Virus record (IMG/VR): IMGVR_UViG_3300009176_000035
Span: 1-51,846 of that record
Direction: 5' to 3' (one strand)
Source of the DNA: a virus
DNA length: 51,846 bases
In this document: positions 24,647 to 51,846 of the stretch, in pieces
Layout: each line of letters starts with the position of its first letter
Numbering within the stretch: the first letter of the stretch is position 1
Made by a program: the position numbers and the translations under genes
The notes under the pieces: generated by a model
What the model saw: only the letters and a program-made list of their open reading frames with translations
The model's database searches: none
What the model was told of the DNA's origin: nothing

Positions 24647-25933
24647 ATGCAGCTTCTTAACAAGTATCGTCGAGTCCCCCTCGAGGAGATCGTCATCGCG
24701 CGGGAGGATAGGCAACGGCGCGATCTCAAGATCGAAGCCCTTATGCCGTCGATCGCCCGCCTTGGGGTGATGAATCCAATAATAGTCCGAGACCAGACCA
24801 TGGAGCTCGTAGCTGGGGAAAGGCGATTGGCTGCAAGTAAAGCCCTCGGCCTCGCGGATATTCCCGTGCGCTTCACCTCGGAATTATCCACGGTTGAGCA
24901 CCAGATCATCGAGCTTGAGGAGAATGTCGCTCGCGAGTCCCTTCCATGGGACGACCGATGCCAAGCGGTTCTCAGGATTCACAAGTTGTATTGTTCTCTG
25001 GATTCCTCCTGGACCCAGTCACGTACTGCGGAGGCCCTGGGCTATTCCAAGGGCTCCATCTCGGACTATCTCCAGGTCGGCGGCGCGTTGCTCAGCGGAA
25101 ACGAGAAGCTCGCCCGCGCCACGAACGTCATCCAGGCCAGAAATGTCCTCGCCCGAGATCAAGCGCGGCGGGAGAGTAATCTTCTCGATGAGCTAACCGA
25201 GGCCATCACCCCAGTCGCGCCGGATGACCAGCCTATCGAGTCCAGTATCCTGGAGGATGATTTCATGATCTGGGCTCGAACTTACGAGGGGCCAAAATTT
25301 AACTTCATCCACTGTGATTTTCCATTTGGAATAGACATGCAGGATAGCGATCAGGGTCGGAGCGCTCTCTATGGCGAGTACGACGACCGGCCAGAGACTT
25401 ACTGGCAGTTACTCGAAGCTTTAGCTTTGCATCAGGATAAGCTTATTCTCCCATCAGCCCACATGATGTTTTGGTTCAGCATGAAGTTTTATCGAGAGAC
25501 TCTAGACTTTTTCAGAGAGCGGATGTCCGAGTGGGAGGTGGATGGCTTTCCATTAATATGGGTTAAGAGTGACAATCGAGGAATCCTCCCGGACCCGAAG
25601 CGTGGCCCACGCCGGATTTACGAGACCTGTCTCTTCGCTTCTCGCGGCGACCGATTTATCGTGCGAAGCGTCAGCAATTCTTACGTCGCCCCATCGGGAG
25701 AGAAAATCCATCAGAGCGAGAAGCCCGAGCCGGTGCTTCGCCATTTCATGCAGATGTTTGTGGATGAGCACTCGAGAATGCTTGATCCAACCTGCGGGAG
25801 TGGCAGCAGCTTACGCGCAGCGGAATCCCTCGGGGCGAGCGCAGTCCTCGGAGTTGAGAAGAATAAGGACTTCGTCCAGGGGGCGAGAAACTCGCTTAAA
25901 AGTTTTCGCACCCTGCGCAGGTTAGCTCAATGA
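24647..25933 (+). CDS. ParB-domain/DNA methyltransferase fusion
   Basis: A 428-residue protein. Residues 1-110 are a ParB/Spo0J-like domain (IARLGVMNPIIVRD, VAGERRLAASKALG, IELEENVARE); residues 120-145 an HTH (SRTAEALGYSKGSISDYL). From about 215 a SAM-dependent methyltransferase follows in permuted order: CDFPFG (motif IV; canonical DPPY or NPPY) near 222 and MLDPTCGSGSSLRAAE (motif I) near 379-394, typical of beta-class N6-adenine or N4-cytosine enzymes. ParB-MTase fusions occur in phages and mobile elements. It may modify phage DNA against restriction. The altered motif IV leaves activity open. Confidence 0.85.
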   Translation: MQLLNKYRRVPLEEIVIAREDRQRRDLKIEALMPSIARLGVMNPIIVRDQTMELVAGERRLAASKALGLADIPVRFTSELSTVEHQIIELEENVARESLPWDDRCQAVLRIHKLYCSLDSSWTQSRTAEALGYSKGSISDYLQVGGALLSGNEKLARATNVIQARNVLARDQARRESNLLDELTEAITPVAPDDQPIESSILEDDFMIWARTYEGPKFNFIHCDFPFGIDMQDSDQGRSALYGEYDDRPETYWQLLEALALHQDKLILPSAHMMFWFSMKFYRETLDFFRERMSEWEVDGFPLIWVKSDNRGILPDPKRGPRRIYETCLFASRGDRFIVRSVSNSYVAPSGEKIHQSEKPEPVLRHFMQMFVDEHSRMLDPTCGSGSSLRAAESLGASAVLGVEKNKDFVQGARNSLKSFRTLRRLAQ

Positions 25934-26988
25934 TCGACCATTTCAAGCCATGTATCCGAGCCATCGGACCACCTCAAGCCAAGATCGCATTCGTGGGCGA
26001 GGCTCCGGGAGAGACCGAGGAGCAGATCGGCTTGCCATTAGTTGGAGCATCAGGTCAAGAATTCACCTCCATGCTCCAGGACGTGGGCATCGAGCGCCGC
26101 CATTGTTACCTAACTAACGTCCTCTTCTCCCGCCCTCCAAACAATAAACTCGAGGCGTTCCTTGTCCCCAAGGGTGAGTTACCGGATGGTTACTCGCTTC
26201 CTCCGATTCTCCCGGCGCTATACCTCCACCCATCTCTCGTGCAGGAAGTTGACCGGCTTAGGGCCGAACTACTGGCACTCCGGCCGAATCTCGTCGTCCC
26301 TCTCGGGAACACCGCATGCTGGGCCCTGCTCGGACGTAGCCGAATTTCTTCCATTCGAGGCGTGGTCGCCGAGGCGAGTCTTCTCCCGGGCCAGAAAGTC
26401 CTCCCGACTTACCATCCGGCCGGAGTCATGCGAAATTGGTCCTGGCGAGTCGTGGTCTTGCAGGACCTCCTCAAGGCCAAGATCGAGGAAGAGTTTCCGG
26501 AGATCCGCCGCCCGGAGCGGCGCCTATTTATCGATCCGACTCTTGAAGAGGCGCTTTCCTTTCTTGACTCGGCGCGAAGCTGCCCGACTCTATCTTGCGA
26601 TATTGAAACTGCGAAAGGCCAGATCACGTCAATCGCCTTCGCAACCCAGCGAGATCTTGCAATGACCATCCCATTCTGGGACCGCCGCAAGGACGGGTGG
26701 AGCTATTGGACCGAACTCGAGGAGCTAACCATATGGGAGCTGATCGCCGGACTATTATCCAGCCATCCGCGGGTACTGTTCCAGAATGGCCTCTACGATG
26801 TGCAGTACCTATGGAGAATAGGCATCCCGGTTCCTGGCTTCTCGGAAGACACAATGCTCCTCCACCACTCTCGATTCCCCGAGCTGCCCAAGAGCCTCGA
26901 GTTCATGGGCTCGATCTACACGAACGAGCGGAGCTGGAAGTCCATGAGAACCCAGCATGGGGCTTCGGATACCAAGAGGGAAGAGTAG
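25930..26988 (+). CDS. Uracil-DNA glycosylase fused to first part of a 3'-5' exonuclease
   Basis: A 352-residue protein, overlapping the previous gene by four bases. Residues 1-190 match family 4/5 uracil-DNA glycosylases: VGEAPGETEEQ, GASGQEFTSML, CYLTNVLFSRPPNN and the late LPTYHPAGV. The cluster cysteines of family 4 are not evident. Residues 215-340 carry Exo I (CDIETAKG, near 223) and Exo II (NGLYDVQYLW, near 285) of a DnaQ-like proofreading domain, then stop after WKSMR. Exo III (YxxxD) is missing here but opens the polymerase gene at 27378. I infer that this is the front part of a split polymerase. Confidence 0.85.
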   Translation: MIDHFKPCIRAIGPPQAKIAFVGEAPGETEEQIGLPLVGASGQEFTSMLQDVGIERRHCYLTNVLFSRPPNNKLEAFLVPKGELPDGYSLPPILPALYLHPSLVQEVDRLRAELLALRPNLVVPLGNTACWALLGRSRISSIRGVVAEASLLPGQKVLPTYHPAGVMRNWSWRVVVLQDLLKAKIEEEFPEIRRPERRLFIDPTLEEALSFLDSARSCPTLSCDIETAKGQITSIAFATQRDLAMTIPFWDRRKDGWSYWTELEELTIWELIAGLLSSHPRVLFQNGLYDVQYLWRIGIPVPGFSEDTMLLHHSRFPELPKSLEFMGSIYTNERSWKSMRTQHGASDTKREE

Positions 26989-26989
26989 G

Positions 26990-27388
26990 ATGCACCCCAG
27001 CGAGATCCAATGTCGAGGCTATTACTATCTAGCTTCCCCCTATTCATCTCCCTCTGCCGTGGAGCGCCAATTCCGAGCGGCGTTGGCTTTGGACTATCAG
27101 GCGGACCTCATCCAGGCCGGCCTCTACATATACTCCCCGATTGGCTCAATCCACCAGCTAGCGGAGAGGCATAGTCTCAATAAGGACTACAAGCACTGGA
27201 GCGATTTCAATAAGATATTCATCATGCAGAGTGCCGGGATGATCATCGCCAAGATGAACGGATGGGAGGAATCTGAGGGAGTCTATCATGAAATCATCCT
27301 CTGCGAGCGGCTCAATAAAAAAATCTACACTTTCGATCGTTCTATCATGAGCGTCGCACCGTACGGGGAGGCGGAGGATGTTGCTTAA
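26990..27388 (+). CDS. DUF1937/DUF4406-like protein
   Basis: A 132-residue protein starting two bases after the previous stop. CRGYYYLASPYSSPSAVER, then ALALDYQADLIQAGLYIYSP and MIIAKMNGWEESEGVYHEI fit the DUF1937/DUF4406 family, which has a nucleoside 2-deoxyribosyltransferase-like fold. It may act on nucleotides. It sits between the two parts of the split proofreading domain and overlaps the polymerase gene by 11 bases. Confidence 0.75.
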   Translation: MHPSEIQCRGYYYLASPYSSPSAVERQFRAALALDYQADLIQAGLYIYSPIGSIHQLAERHSLNKDYKHWSDFNKIFIMQSAGMIIAKMNGWEESEGVYHEIILCERLNKKIYTFDRSIMSVAPYGEAEDVA

Positions 27389-28895
27389 CAGCACCGACTT
27401 ACCGTCCATTCTCGACGAGCACCAAACCCACCAGATTTACAACGCCCTCGACGCGGCCCTCACCCTCGAGATCTTCGAGGAACTTTCGGCGCTCCCGACC
27501 TCTCCCGAGTCTCAGCTCATGTATGATTTCAGCCGAGCGGTTCAAGCCCCGGCTCTCGAGATGATGCTCCGTGGCATCCGAGTGGACAACGCGAAGAGAT
27601 GGGCCTTCATCCACCGCCTCGAGGAGGACGAGATCCGAGTCCAGGAAATCCTCGATGAGTTCGCCACCGCAATCTGGGGCACTGGCCTCAATCCTCGCTC
27701 CCCTAAGCAGCTCAAGGAATTTTTCTATTCCGCCATGGGCTACCCCCAGCAGTTCAAGTTCTTCAAGGGAGAGAGAAAGCTCTCGACCGATCGGGAGGCC
27801 CTCGAGAAATTGGCTGCATACTTCCACACCCAGCCGTTGATTAATTGTATCTTGAAGCTTAGAGATCTCCGGAAGAAATCATCAATCCTACGGAGCGAGG
27901 TCGATGAAGCCTCGGACGGGTCCTATCGCATGCATACCTCGTATAATGTTGTCGGAACCGAGACCAACCGATGGTCGAGTTCCAAGAACGTCGAGGGAGG
28001 CGGAACCAATCTCCAGAATCTTACCGAAGAGCTCAGGCGAATATTCATCGCAGACCCCGGGCGCAAGTTGGCTTACATCGACCTATCTCAGGCCGAGAGC
28101 CGTGCTGTTGGCTTTCTTTGTTGGACTATTTTTGGGCGGAGCGCTTACCTTGACGCTAGCGAGTCAGGGGACCTCCATACCTCGGTCGCTCGGCTGGTGT
28201 GGCCGAGGATGCCATGGACAGAGGACCCCAGCCATAATCGGGCGTTGGCCGAGCGACCATTCTACCGGCATTTCTCCTACCGAGATATGGCCAAGAGAGC
28301 CGGACACGCCACCAATTACTACGGGCAGCCATTCACGGTTAGCAAGAATCTTAAAGTTCCTCAGGAACTAATCGAGAGCTTCCGCCGGGATTACTTCCAT
28401 GCTTTCCCTGAGCTTCAGGATTACCACAGATTTATATCTCGAGAGCTCCAGCTGAGTGGCCAGATCAGCACGCCGCTTGGGACCACCAGAACATTTTTCG
28501 GCCGCCGGAACGATGATGCGACCCTCCGGGAAGCAATAGCTCATGTCCCCCAGCACATGGTCGGGGTGCTGCTCAACCTCGCCCTCTGGCGAGTTTGGCA
28601 TCACCTTGGAAAGGAAGTGGACATCCTAGCCCAGGTCCACGATGCGATCCTCATCCAGTACCATGAGGAGCGCGAGACCGAGCTAATCTCCCGAGTGCTC
28701 CCATTGATGGTCACGCCACTCCAGCATGGGGGTCGAACAATGTTCATCCCGAGTGATGTGGCGGTCGGGTGGAACTGGAGCAAGTATAGTGCCAGCAACC
28801 CAGATGGACTCAAGCACCTAGCATTGGGGGAAGCGGATGGTAGAGTCAGGCGGGACTCCCCAACCAGCGATCCACTTAGTCGCCTCGTCGCCTAG
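27378..28895 (+). CDS. Family A DNA polymerase starting at Exo III
   Basis: A 505-residue protein. Residues 20-30 contain YNALDAALTLE, the Exo III motif of a proofreading domain whose other motifs are in the gene at 25930. The palm/fingers follow: TETNRWSSSKN, motif A YIDLSQAESRAV near 233, motif B RDMAKRAGHATNYYG near 302, motif C QVHDAIL near 420 (the usual E after HD is A). The length is that of a polymerase domain without an exonuclease. GGGGAGG lies six bases before the ATG. I infer the replicative polymerase, which would need the upstream protein for proofreading. Confidence 0.9.
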   Translation: MLLNSTDLPSILDEHQTHQIYNALDAALTLEIFEELSALPTSPESQLMYDFSRAVQAPALEMMLRGIRVDNAKRWAFIHRLEEDEIRVQEILDEFATAIWGTGLNPRSPKQLKEFFYSAMGYPQQFKFFKGERKLSTDREALEKLAAYFHTQPLINCILKLRDLRKKSSILRSEVDEASDGSYRMHTSYNVVGTETNRWSSSKNVEGGGTNLQNLTEELRRIFIADPGRKLAYIDLSQAESRAVGFLCWTIFGRSAYLDASESGDLHTSVARLVWPRMPWTEDPSHNRALAERPFYRHFSYRDMAKRAGHATNYYGQPFTVSKNLKVPQELIESFRRDYFHAFPELQDYHRFISRELQLSGQISTPLGTTRTFFGRRNDDATLREAIAHVPQHMVGVLLNLALWRVWHHLGKEVDILAQVHDAILIQYHEERETELISRVLPLMVTPLQHGGRTMFIPSDVAVGWNWSKYSASNPDGLKHLALGEADGRVRRDSPTSDPLSRLVA

Positions 28896-50636: not shown

Positions 50637-51846
50637 CAGTGCAGCACCCAGTTCGTGCCGTTGCAGTAGACCGGCATGTGGTTTGTCCCGGCACCTGCCG
50701 CCGTGGCGTTGTAGGTCGTGGAGTTAGCGTCGGTCACTCCGCGCATCATGCCTTCCAGAGGGCCGTTGCAGGACGGCAGCAGGGCCACCGTCGAAATGGC
50801 CACCTGCACCCCGCCGGCCACCCGGAGGTTGCCGAGTCCAGGGTCGGTCAGCGCCGAGCCCGTGTTGACCTGGACGCCCTGGCCGATTCGGAACCGCTCG
50901 CCGTTGGTGCCGGCAACGCTGGTATTGAACCGCAGCGTCCCCGCTTCAGCACCTGCGACGATGCTGTCGGCGACGGCGGCGATCGTCGCGTAGATGAAGT
51001 TCGCCGGGGTGGAGTTTGTCCCCTCGAAGCGGAATGCTCCAACTCCATCGTTATTGGTCGGCGTCGCGCGCGTATGCCGCTGGGTGATGATCGGCGTCGT
51101 TGCCGTATCGTTGGTGCCGATCAGCGTCTGAAGAACGCCGCCAGCGGCGTTGGTGATCGTCGAGGTGGCGTTGTTCGTCGTCACTCCGTTGAACGTCGTC
51201 GCCCCAGTATGCGTAGTTGCTCCTGTGACGGTCAGAGCGCCGGAGAAGGTAGCACCTCCTGCTCCGGCAATGGTCAGCCGGTCAGCTGGAGCGCTGCCGT
51301 TCGCCGTGCGGAATACGAGGTTAGAGACGGAACCGCCCGTCGTTGCAGTGGATACGATCTGCGCTGAGCGTCCACCCGGTGCATTGCTGGTTGGATTCAT
51401 GTCTATCGCCACGCCGGTGTTCGTCGCGCCGGCATGATTGGTCAGCGCCAGGGCGACCGCCTCCTGCCCGTTGTCGGTGTTGACAATCGTTTGCTGGCCG
51501 GTCGTCTCCCAGCCTGCGTCCGTCACCTCCGTCCTGTTGATTGGCCCATAAAAGTCAGCGGTCAGATACCCATAGGCACGACCATTGACGACGGTCGCCG
51601 GGACAGTTGTCGCCTGCTCGGTGTAGAAGCCGTAGTTCATCGTGTGGACGGCCTGGTCGTCTATGGCGAGCGGATTGATGACCTGTATGTCCACGCCGGG
51701 GATGCCACCGCCGGTAAGCCAGAATGCCGGAGCATTGCCCCAGTTCTGGCTCGCCCCCGGATTGACGACCATCATGTCGACGATCCTGAGATGCGTCCCG
51801 CCGCTGATGTCCGGGACGTTGCCGCCACCGATGGTCAGGCCGGCAA
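50636..51846 (-). CDS. Tail spike/fibre, C-terminal part of the origin-spanning gene
   Basis: This frame enters from the right edge without a start and ends at TGA 50638-50636. It continues the protein that begins at 1403: the joined sequence reads YRSGLAGLTIGGG across the ends. It holds the last beta-helix turns (INPLAIDDQAVHTMNYGFY), a Thr-rich repeat zone (GALTVTGATTHTGATTFNG) and a C-terminal domain ending GTNHMPVYCNGTNWVLH, a tip motif common in phage fibres. The ATG at 51775 is internal, not the start. It is coupled to the small terminase gene. Confidence 0.85.
   Translation of the reverse strand, partial: AGLTIGGGNVPDISGGTHLRIVDMMVVNPGASQNWGNAPAFWLTGGGIPGVDIQVINPLAIDDQAVHTMNYGFYTEQATTVPATVVNGRAYGYLTADFYGPINRTEVTDAGWETTGQQTIVNTDNGQEAVALALTNHAGATNTGVAIDMNPTSNAPGGRSAQIVSTATTGGSVSNLVFRTANGSAPADRLTIAGAGGATFSGALTVTGATTHTGATTFNGVTTNNATSTITNAAGGVLQTLIGTNDTATTPIITQRHTRATPTNNDGVGAFRFEGTNSTPANFIYATIAAVADSIVAGAEAGTLRFNTSVAGTNGERFRIGQGVQVNTGSALTDPGLGNLRVAGGVQVAISTVALLPSCNGPLEGMMRGVTDANSTTYNATAAGAGTNHMPVYCNGTNWVLH
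51837..51846. repeat. Terminal overlap, right copy
   Basis: AGGCCGGCAA, identical to positions 1-10. Merged length would be 51,836 bp. Confidence 0.85.

Follow-up and report, generated by a model that had tools for sequence, protein, structure and literature searches.

The family A DNA polymerase encoded in a 51,846-nucleotide stretch of viral DNA (IMG/VR record IMGVR_UViG_3300009176_000035, positions 1 to 51,846; the window) is probably an ancient two-chain enzyme, in which the proofreading exonuclease site would be completed by the N-terminus of the polymerase. We give this reading, in which assembly and activity are predicted from sequence comparison and structure models, a probability of about 85%. 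The window and its relatives share one break site, form a single clade and have invariant catalytic residues, coupled gene starts and varied small genes (cargo) between the two parts.

Organisation of the split polymerase in the window

The three genes concerned lie on the + strand in three different reading frames. The upstream gene (25930..26988; chain 1, 352 aa; phrog_17) encodes a uracil-DNA glycosylase (UDG) domain at residues 13-172 (PF03167, E = 5.6e-26), followed by the Exo I/Exo II part of a 3'-5' exonuclease and the tail WKSMRTQHGASDTKREE. The downstream gene (27378..28895; chain 2, 505 aa; PF00476, E = 3.9e-32) encodes an Exo III helix and the thumb, palm and fingers of the polymerase. 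In a profile alignment to Klenow, DIET corresponded to Exo I (D224 and E226 in DIE, 26599..26607), QNGLYD to Exo II (D290, 26797..26799) and YNALD to Exo III (Y21 and D25, 27438..27452). The Klenow-type set of four catalytic carboxylates and the Exo III tyrosine is complete and spread over two chains; since these are encoded by separate genes in different frames, we classify the enzyme as a split variant of a Klenow-like polymerase. Open reading frames, Pfam matches and the Klenow alignment bear out the arrangement described in the initial annotation, with Exo I and Exo II closing the UDG fusion gene, Exo III in the polymerase gene and a DUF1937 gene between them. The position given there for Exo III, polymerase residues 20-24, was off by one, as 20 residues precede the motif and it occupies residues 21-25.

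The intervening gene (26990..27388) encodes a nucleoside 2-deoxyribosyltransferase-like protein of 132 aa, which matched PF09152 (E = 7.4e-10 to 9.6e-10) and phrog_355 (2e-10). Its most likely start, judged from the sequence, is the ATG at 26990, one base past the chain 1 stop, because AAGAGGGAAGAG is found upstream of this codon and a comparable site is missing ahead of the ATG at 26957; the gene is complete with its own start, as had been proposed. Likewise, the 11-base overlap between its 3' end (27388) and the start of chain 2 is present. The AAG AGG codons at the end of chain 1 (AAG AGG GAA GAG TAG, 26973..26988) precede the DUF1937 gene as its putative Shine-Dalgarno sequence, and GGGGAGG is located 6 bases upstream of the chain 2 start at 27378.

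Chain 2 contains polymerase motifs A, B and C with the conserved residues D235, R302/K306 and H421-D422. Motif B (28278-28322) also includes H310, the equivalent of Phe762 of E. coli Pol I, which is His in 148 of 149 relatives with this column; the virioplankton literature that we checked discusses Phe, Tyr and Leu at this position and held no match for histidine. Upstream of chain 1, a gene at 24647-25933 encodes a ParB-like N-terminal domain fused to a DNA methyltransferase domain and shares an ATGA overlap with chain 1; the same fusion is found upstream of chain 1 in another locus (L004).

The break site is shared by all relatives found

Scans with the polymerase and chain 1 yielded 160 viral contig stretches, a survey biased by the limit of the best 80 matches per query and by the many contigs that are fragments; Caulobacter phage Kuura and the fused homologue MW202489 were found in addition. 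All 152 loci holding both parts among these best matches were split at the same place, and the two genes were always adjacent and in the same order. Ten loci with only the polymerase or only the UDG-exonuclease gene lie near contig ends and were not scored as losses. Removal of near-copies at 90% identity left 100 distinct loci. From the W of an invariant WK to the end of chain 1, which falls in a surface loop, there are 11-20 residues (W counted); the usual chain 1 tail in the 152 loci from the best 80 matches per query is WKxMRxRxxTxKR(D/E)(D/E). Chain 2 begins 17-27 residues ahead of the Exo III tyrosine, usually with MxIIxTxxLxP.

The gap between the two genes is essentially nil in 15 of the 100 loci, which abut or overlap by 0-3 nt (ATGA, TAATG, TGATG and similar); it measures 25-58 nt in two, and the remaining 83 carry 135-4644 nt of varied cargo. 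In the 15 loci lacking cargo, the AAG AGG of the chain 1 tail is positioned as expected for the Shine-Dalgarno sequence of the polymerase gene. In L043 (2640-2840), and in no other locus, the frames of chain 1 and chain 2 agree and a single TGA separates them, so that occasional readthrough would yield a fused protein. As a separate observation, the UDG and exonuclease parts of chain 1 are found in separate ORFs in L020 (3908-5433), a possible three-way split. The only clue to a host is a 52-kb contig (L250) binned with an Acidobacteria gp4 MAG, which is too weak to name one. The split clade is a large group of mostly uncultured phages, and small genes such as the DUF1937 gene of the window have settled in its gap again and again.

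Conservation of the divided exonuclease site

Among the 100 nonredundant loci, whose mean identity is 47-48%, D224, E226, Y21 and D25 were each present in 100 and D290 in 99. The one exception is the deep-branching L100, where the Exo II Asp is replaced by Glu (QNGLYE), possibly a natural weakening of proofreading. Mean column conservation was 0.61 for the UDG domain and 0.60 for the exonuclease part of chain 1, the surroundings of Exo III and the polymerase alike. Divergence of chain 1 and chain 2 was correlated, with a Spearman coefficient of 0.68 for which the relatedness of the loci inflates any test. The invariant motif residues together with this even conservation argue that the exonuclease function has not been lost.

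A fused sister clade with breaks of its own

A tree of 114 rows, based on the sequence that starts at Exo III, was computed by a quick maximum-likelihood method with no bootstrap. All split loci fell on one side of a branch with an SH-aLRT support of 100, and a clade of fused UDG-exonuclease-polymerase proteins including those of Microcystis phage Mel-JY34 and MW202489 was their sister. The initial annotation had held that these parts typically form one chain in related phages, which applies to the sister clade only; in the window's own clade, only split relatives were found. When fused homologues were used as queries, 80 further stretches were obtained (best 80 matches), in nearly all of which Exo II and Exo III lie in a single frame, connected by a loop of 11-26, most commonly 19, residues.

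Two members of the fused clade are broken in this same loop. In L188 (3100-3400), the sequence WKAGG is followed by a stop and then by an ATG behind GGAGG, and in L224 (4080-4400) the break takes the form of an ATGA overlap. Each is a single contig and a sequencing error in one of them is possible; from their position inside the fused clade, the same-loop break arose independently at least once more and probably twice. Breaks of other kinds were also seen: six members of the fused clade are broken in the palm before motif A (L165, 3956-7090; L208, L216, L219, L220 and L231), several of them with a gene or gap between the pieces, one fused relative is broken after the exonuclease domain (L166), and two loci may have frameshift breaks (L149, L163).

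Structure models

The polymerase of the window was predicted on its own at a pLDDT of 92.4, with the Exo III motif on a helix at residues 14-37, and the model matched the large fragments of Pol I. A pseudo-fusion of the two chains of L043, in which the single TGA was read as Gly, was predicted with a pLDDT of 95.2 and a pTM of 0.92, confidence being low only at the ends (first residues) and at the junction (337-352). Its best PDB matches were Klenow structures with the exonuclease (8oo6, 1kfs), with a TM-score of 0.77 by target length over 668 columns. The model shows that the sequences of chain 1 and chain 2 can complete one predicted fold when tethered, as they are in the pseudo-fusion, where the rows of fused homologues in the alignment also favour a single-chain fold. 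The composite exonuclease that the initial annotation had put forward as one of two outcomes is thus well supported by the invariant catalytic residues in both chains, the same-loop splits in the sister clade and the Klenow-like pseudo-fusion, and probably exists.

Genes found at the junction

The junctions contained 116 candidate ORFs in 78 clusters, with Pfam matches to DUF7768 (22), DUF1937 (8), HNH_3 (4), KTSC (4) and MazG (2); 29 of the ORFs matched phrog_355 (nucleoside 2-deoxyribosyltransferase). Using profiles built from the two main cargo clusters, we counted deoxyribosyltransferase-like genes at the junction in 36 of the 100 loci (DUF7768 in 26, DUF1937 in 10), all on the + strand; examples are L004, L009, L017, L022, L036 and the window (26990-27388). 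Only three such genes were present elsewhere in the same stretches, although the junctions account for just 5% of their sequence, giving a naive binomial p of 6e-44 that ignores relatedness. Presence of such a gene at the junction changes about 20 times on the tree, by gain or loss, and its association with the junction is real in this sample. Two fused loci (L174, L200) have a DUF1937 gene just upstream of the polymerase gene.

The DUF1937 protein of the window has SPY and GWxxSxGVxxE signatures, the latter conserved in the alignment. Since its match to PF05014 is below the cut-off, we regard it as a relative of the deoxyribosyltransferases rather than as a proven transferase; it is no part of the exonuclease. 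These genes may act together with the UDG or help to clear released nucleotides, but this is no more than a suggestion. More specifically, the split might be kept because the junction hosts a third partner: DUF1937/DUF7768 enzymes would work with the UDG-exonuclease chain, e.g. by hydrolysing dNMPs (dUMP or damaged) freed when DNA is repaired or proofread. The polymerase would thereby be joined with UDG, exonuclease and nucleotide clean-up in a modular unit with exchangeable parts. We consider this explanation of the split unlikely. A literature search retrieved nothing on DUF1937 in phages, nor on deoxyribosyltransferases in connection with uracil in phages.

Explanations for the split

In the two-chain polymerase that we favour, chain 1 would supply the UDG and the Exo I/Exo II part, and chain 2 the Exo III helix and the polymerase. 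These two proteins would be produced from adjacent, translationally coupled genes and then probably associate, bringing D224, E226 and D290 of chain 1 together with Y21 and D25 of chain 2 in a single proofreading site. It is unlikely that the chains instead function independently, with chain 1 repairing DNA by itself and the YNALD helix retained solely to lead structurally into the thumb. Separate genes would permit separate amounts of the proteins and the polymerase is modelled confidently alone, but Y21 and D25 are invariant in chain 2, which lacks an exonuclease sheet, no chain 1 has acquired a separate Exo III, and the genes are neighbours in one and the same order throughout the loci found. 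Even less probable is the other outcome considered in the initial annotation, that the split killed the exonuclease and left its motifs as remnants. The motifs are indeed separated at the gene level, but this loss of proofreading is contradicted by five catalytic residues that are (near-)invariant in 100 loci of such low mean identity and by an exonuclease part conserved no less than the rest.

As to the origin of the break, a single event in the ancestral phage of a large clade probably produced it, within a surface loop tolerant of length change, and the gap then would have become a site of small-gene turnover, often of deoxyribosyltransferase-like genes, with DUF1937 as the present occupant in the window phage. 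The view of the DUF1937-like gene as the splitter, by which it would have broken a fused gene in the window phage like a free-standing homing endonuclease of T4-type phages, has in its favour that the gene sits exactly at the break, that homing genes break phage polymerase genes elsewhere (PMC2988022) and that HNH genes are found at four junctions. We nevertheless judge it very improbable: the split is common to the whole clade, in which the gap holds DUF7768, HNH, MazG or unknown genes or nothing, and the DUF1937 gene lies between a pre-existing stop and a pre-existing start and is therefore not the maker of the break. An ancient insertion that was later lost is possible as its first cause. 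Breakage by a homing endonuclease or intron was rejected for the window, where the intervening gene is DUF1937 and a scan of the whole window against Rfam returned no match to an intron or other RNA element. Joining of the parts into one chain by RNA or protein splicing, frameshifting or readthrough is extremely unlikely. Only L043, with its in-phase frames, speaks for it, and readthrough was rejected as the normal route; the window uses three different frames, chain 1 and chain 2 are out of phase in most relatives without cargo, a separate start with its Shine-Dalgarno sequence serves each chain, and the cargo genes are complete ORFs. The earlier statement that no intein or intron boundary was visible is in line with these results.

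Relation to known polymerases

The fused phage UDG-exonuclease-family A polymerases (phrog_17; Microcystis phage Mel-JY34, MW202489) have the same domains, order and motifs as the window, but in one chain with a continuous Exo II-Exo III loop. A UDG-exonuclease-polymerase was described for Pseudomonas phage PaBG (PMC7412058). Caulobacter phage Kuura (OQ067476), an isolate, has the same split as the window, with 41% (chain 1) and 46% (chain 2) identity over the alignments, and two other small genes in the gap in place of DUF1937. Its chain 1 is annotated only as hypothetical, and the Kuura paper mentions neither an exonuclease nor a glycosylase (PMC9959647).

Two-chain phage polymerases are already known. 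The family A polymerase of the OM43 phages MEP401 and MEP402 is encoded by two ORFs with a small unknown gene between them (PMC10580990). In contrast to the window, the break there lies within the polymerase domain, the exonuclease domain is whole and a UDG is not mentioned (PMC10580990); the breaks of fused relatives in the palm or after the exonuclease domain resemble this case. In the Aeromonas T4-like phages 25 and 44RR, gp43 is split as 43A/43B, and gp43A and gp43B of an Aeromonas phage co-purify and are active (reviewed in PMC2988022). Compared by number of chains, intervening DNA and polymerase family, these share with the window a replicative polymerase in two chains and intervening DNA that differs among relatives; unlike the window, they belong to family B and are associated with either a homing endonuclease or inserted DNA that is not translated. 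A break dividing the proofreading site itself, or a clade with such a break as the rule, was not found in the literature searched, most subscription papers being outside the search. On the predicted assembly, the division of the proofreading site would be a new variation.

If this is true, DNA replication in an entire clade of environmental phages relies on a polymerase with a proofreading site built from two proteins, and the coupling of polymerase and exonuclease would be directly testable by mixing the chains, altering their ratios or exchanging chain 1 between relatives. Automatic annotation would class the polymerase as lacking an exonuclease and list its partner as a hypothetical protein, the label given in Kuura. 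The junction also documents that genes were gained repeatedly at a single point within an essential enzyme. With regard to the window as a whole, positions 1-10 and 51837-51846 both read AGGCCGGCAA, so that it is possibly a circular or terminally redundant complete genome.
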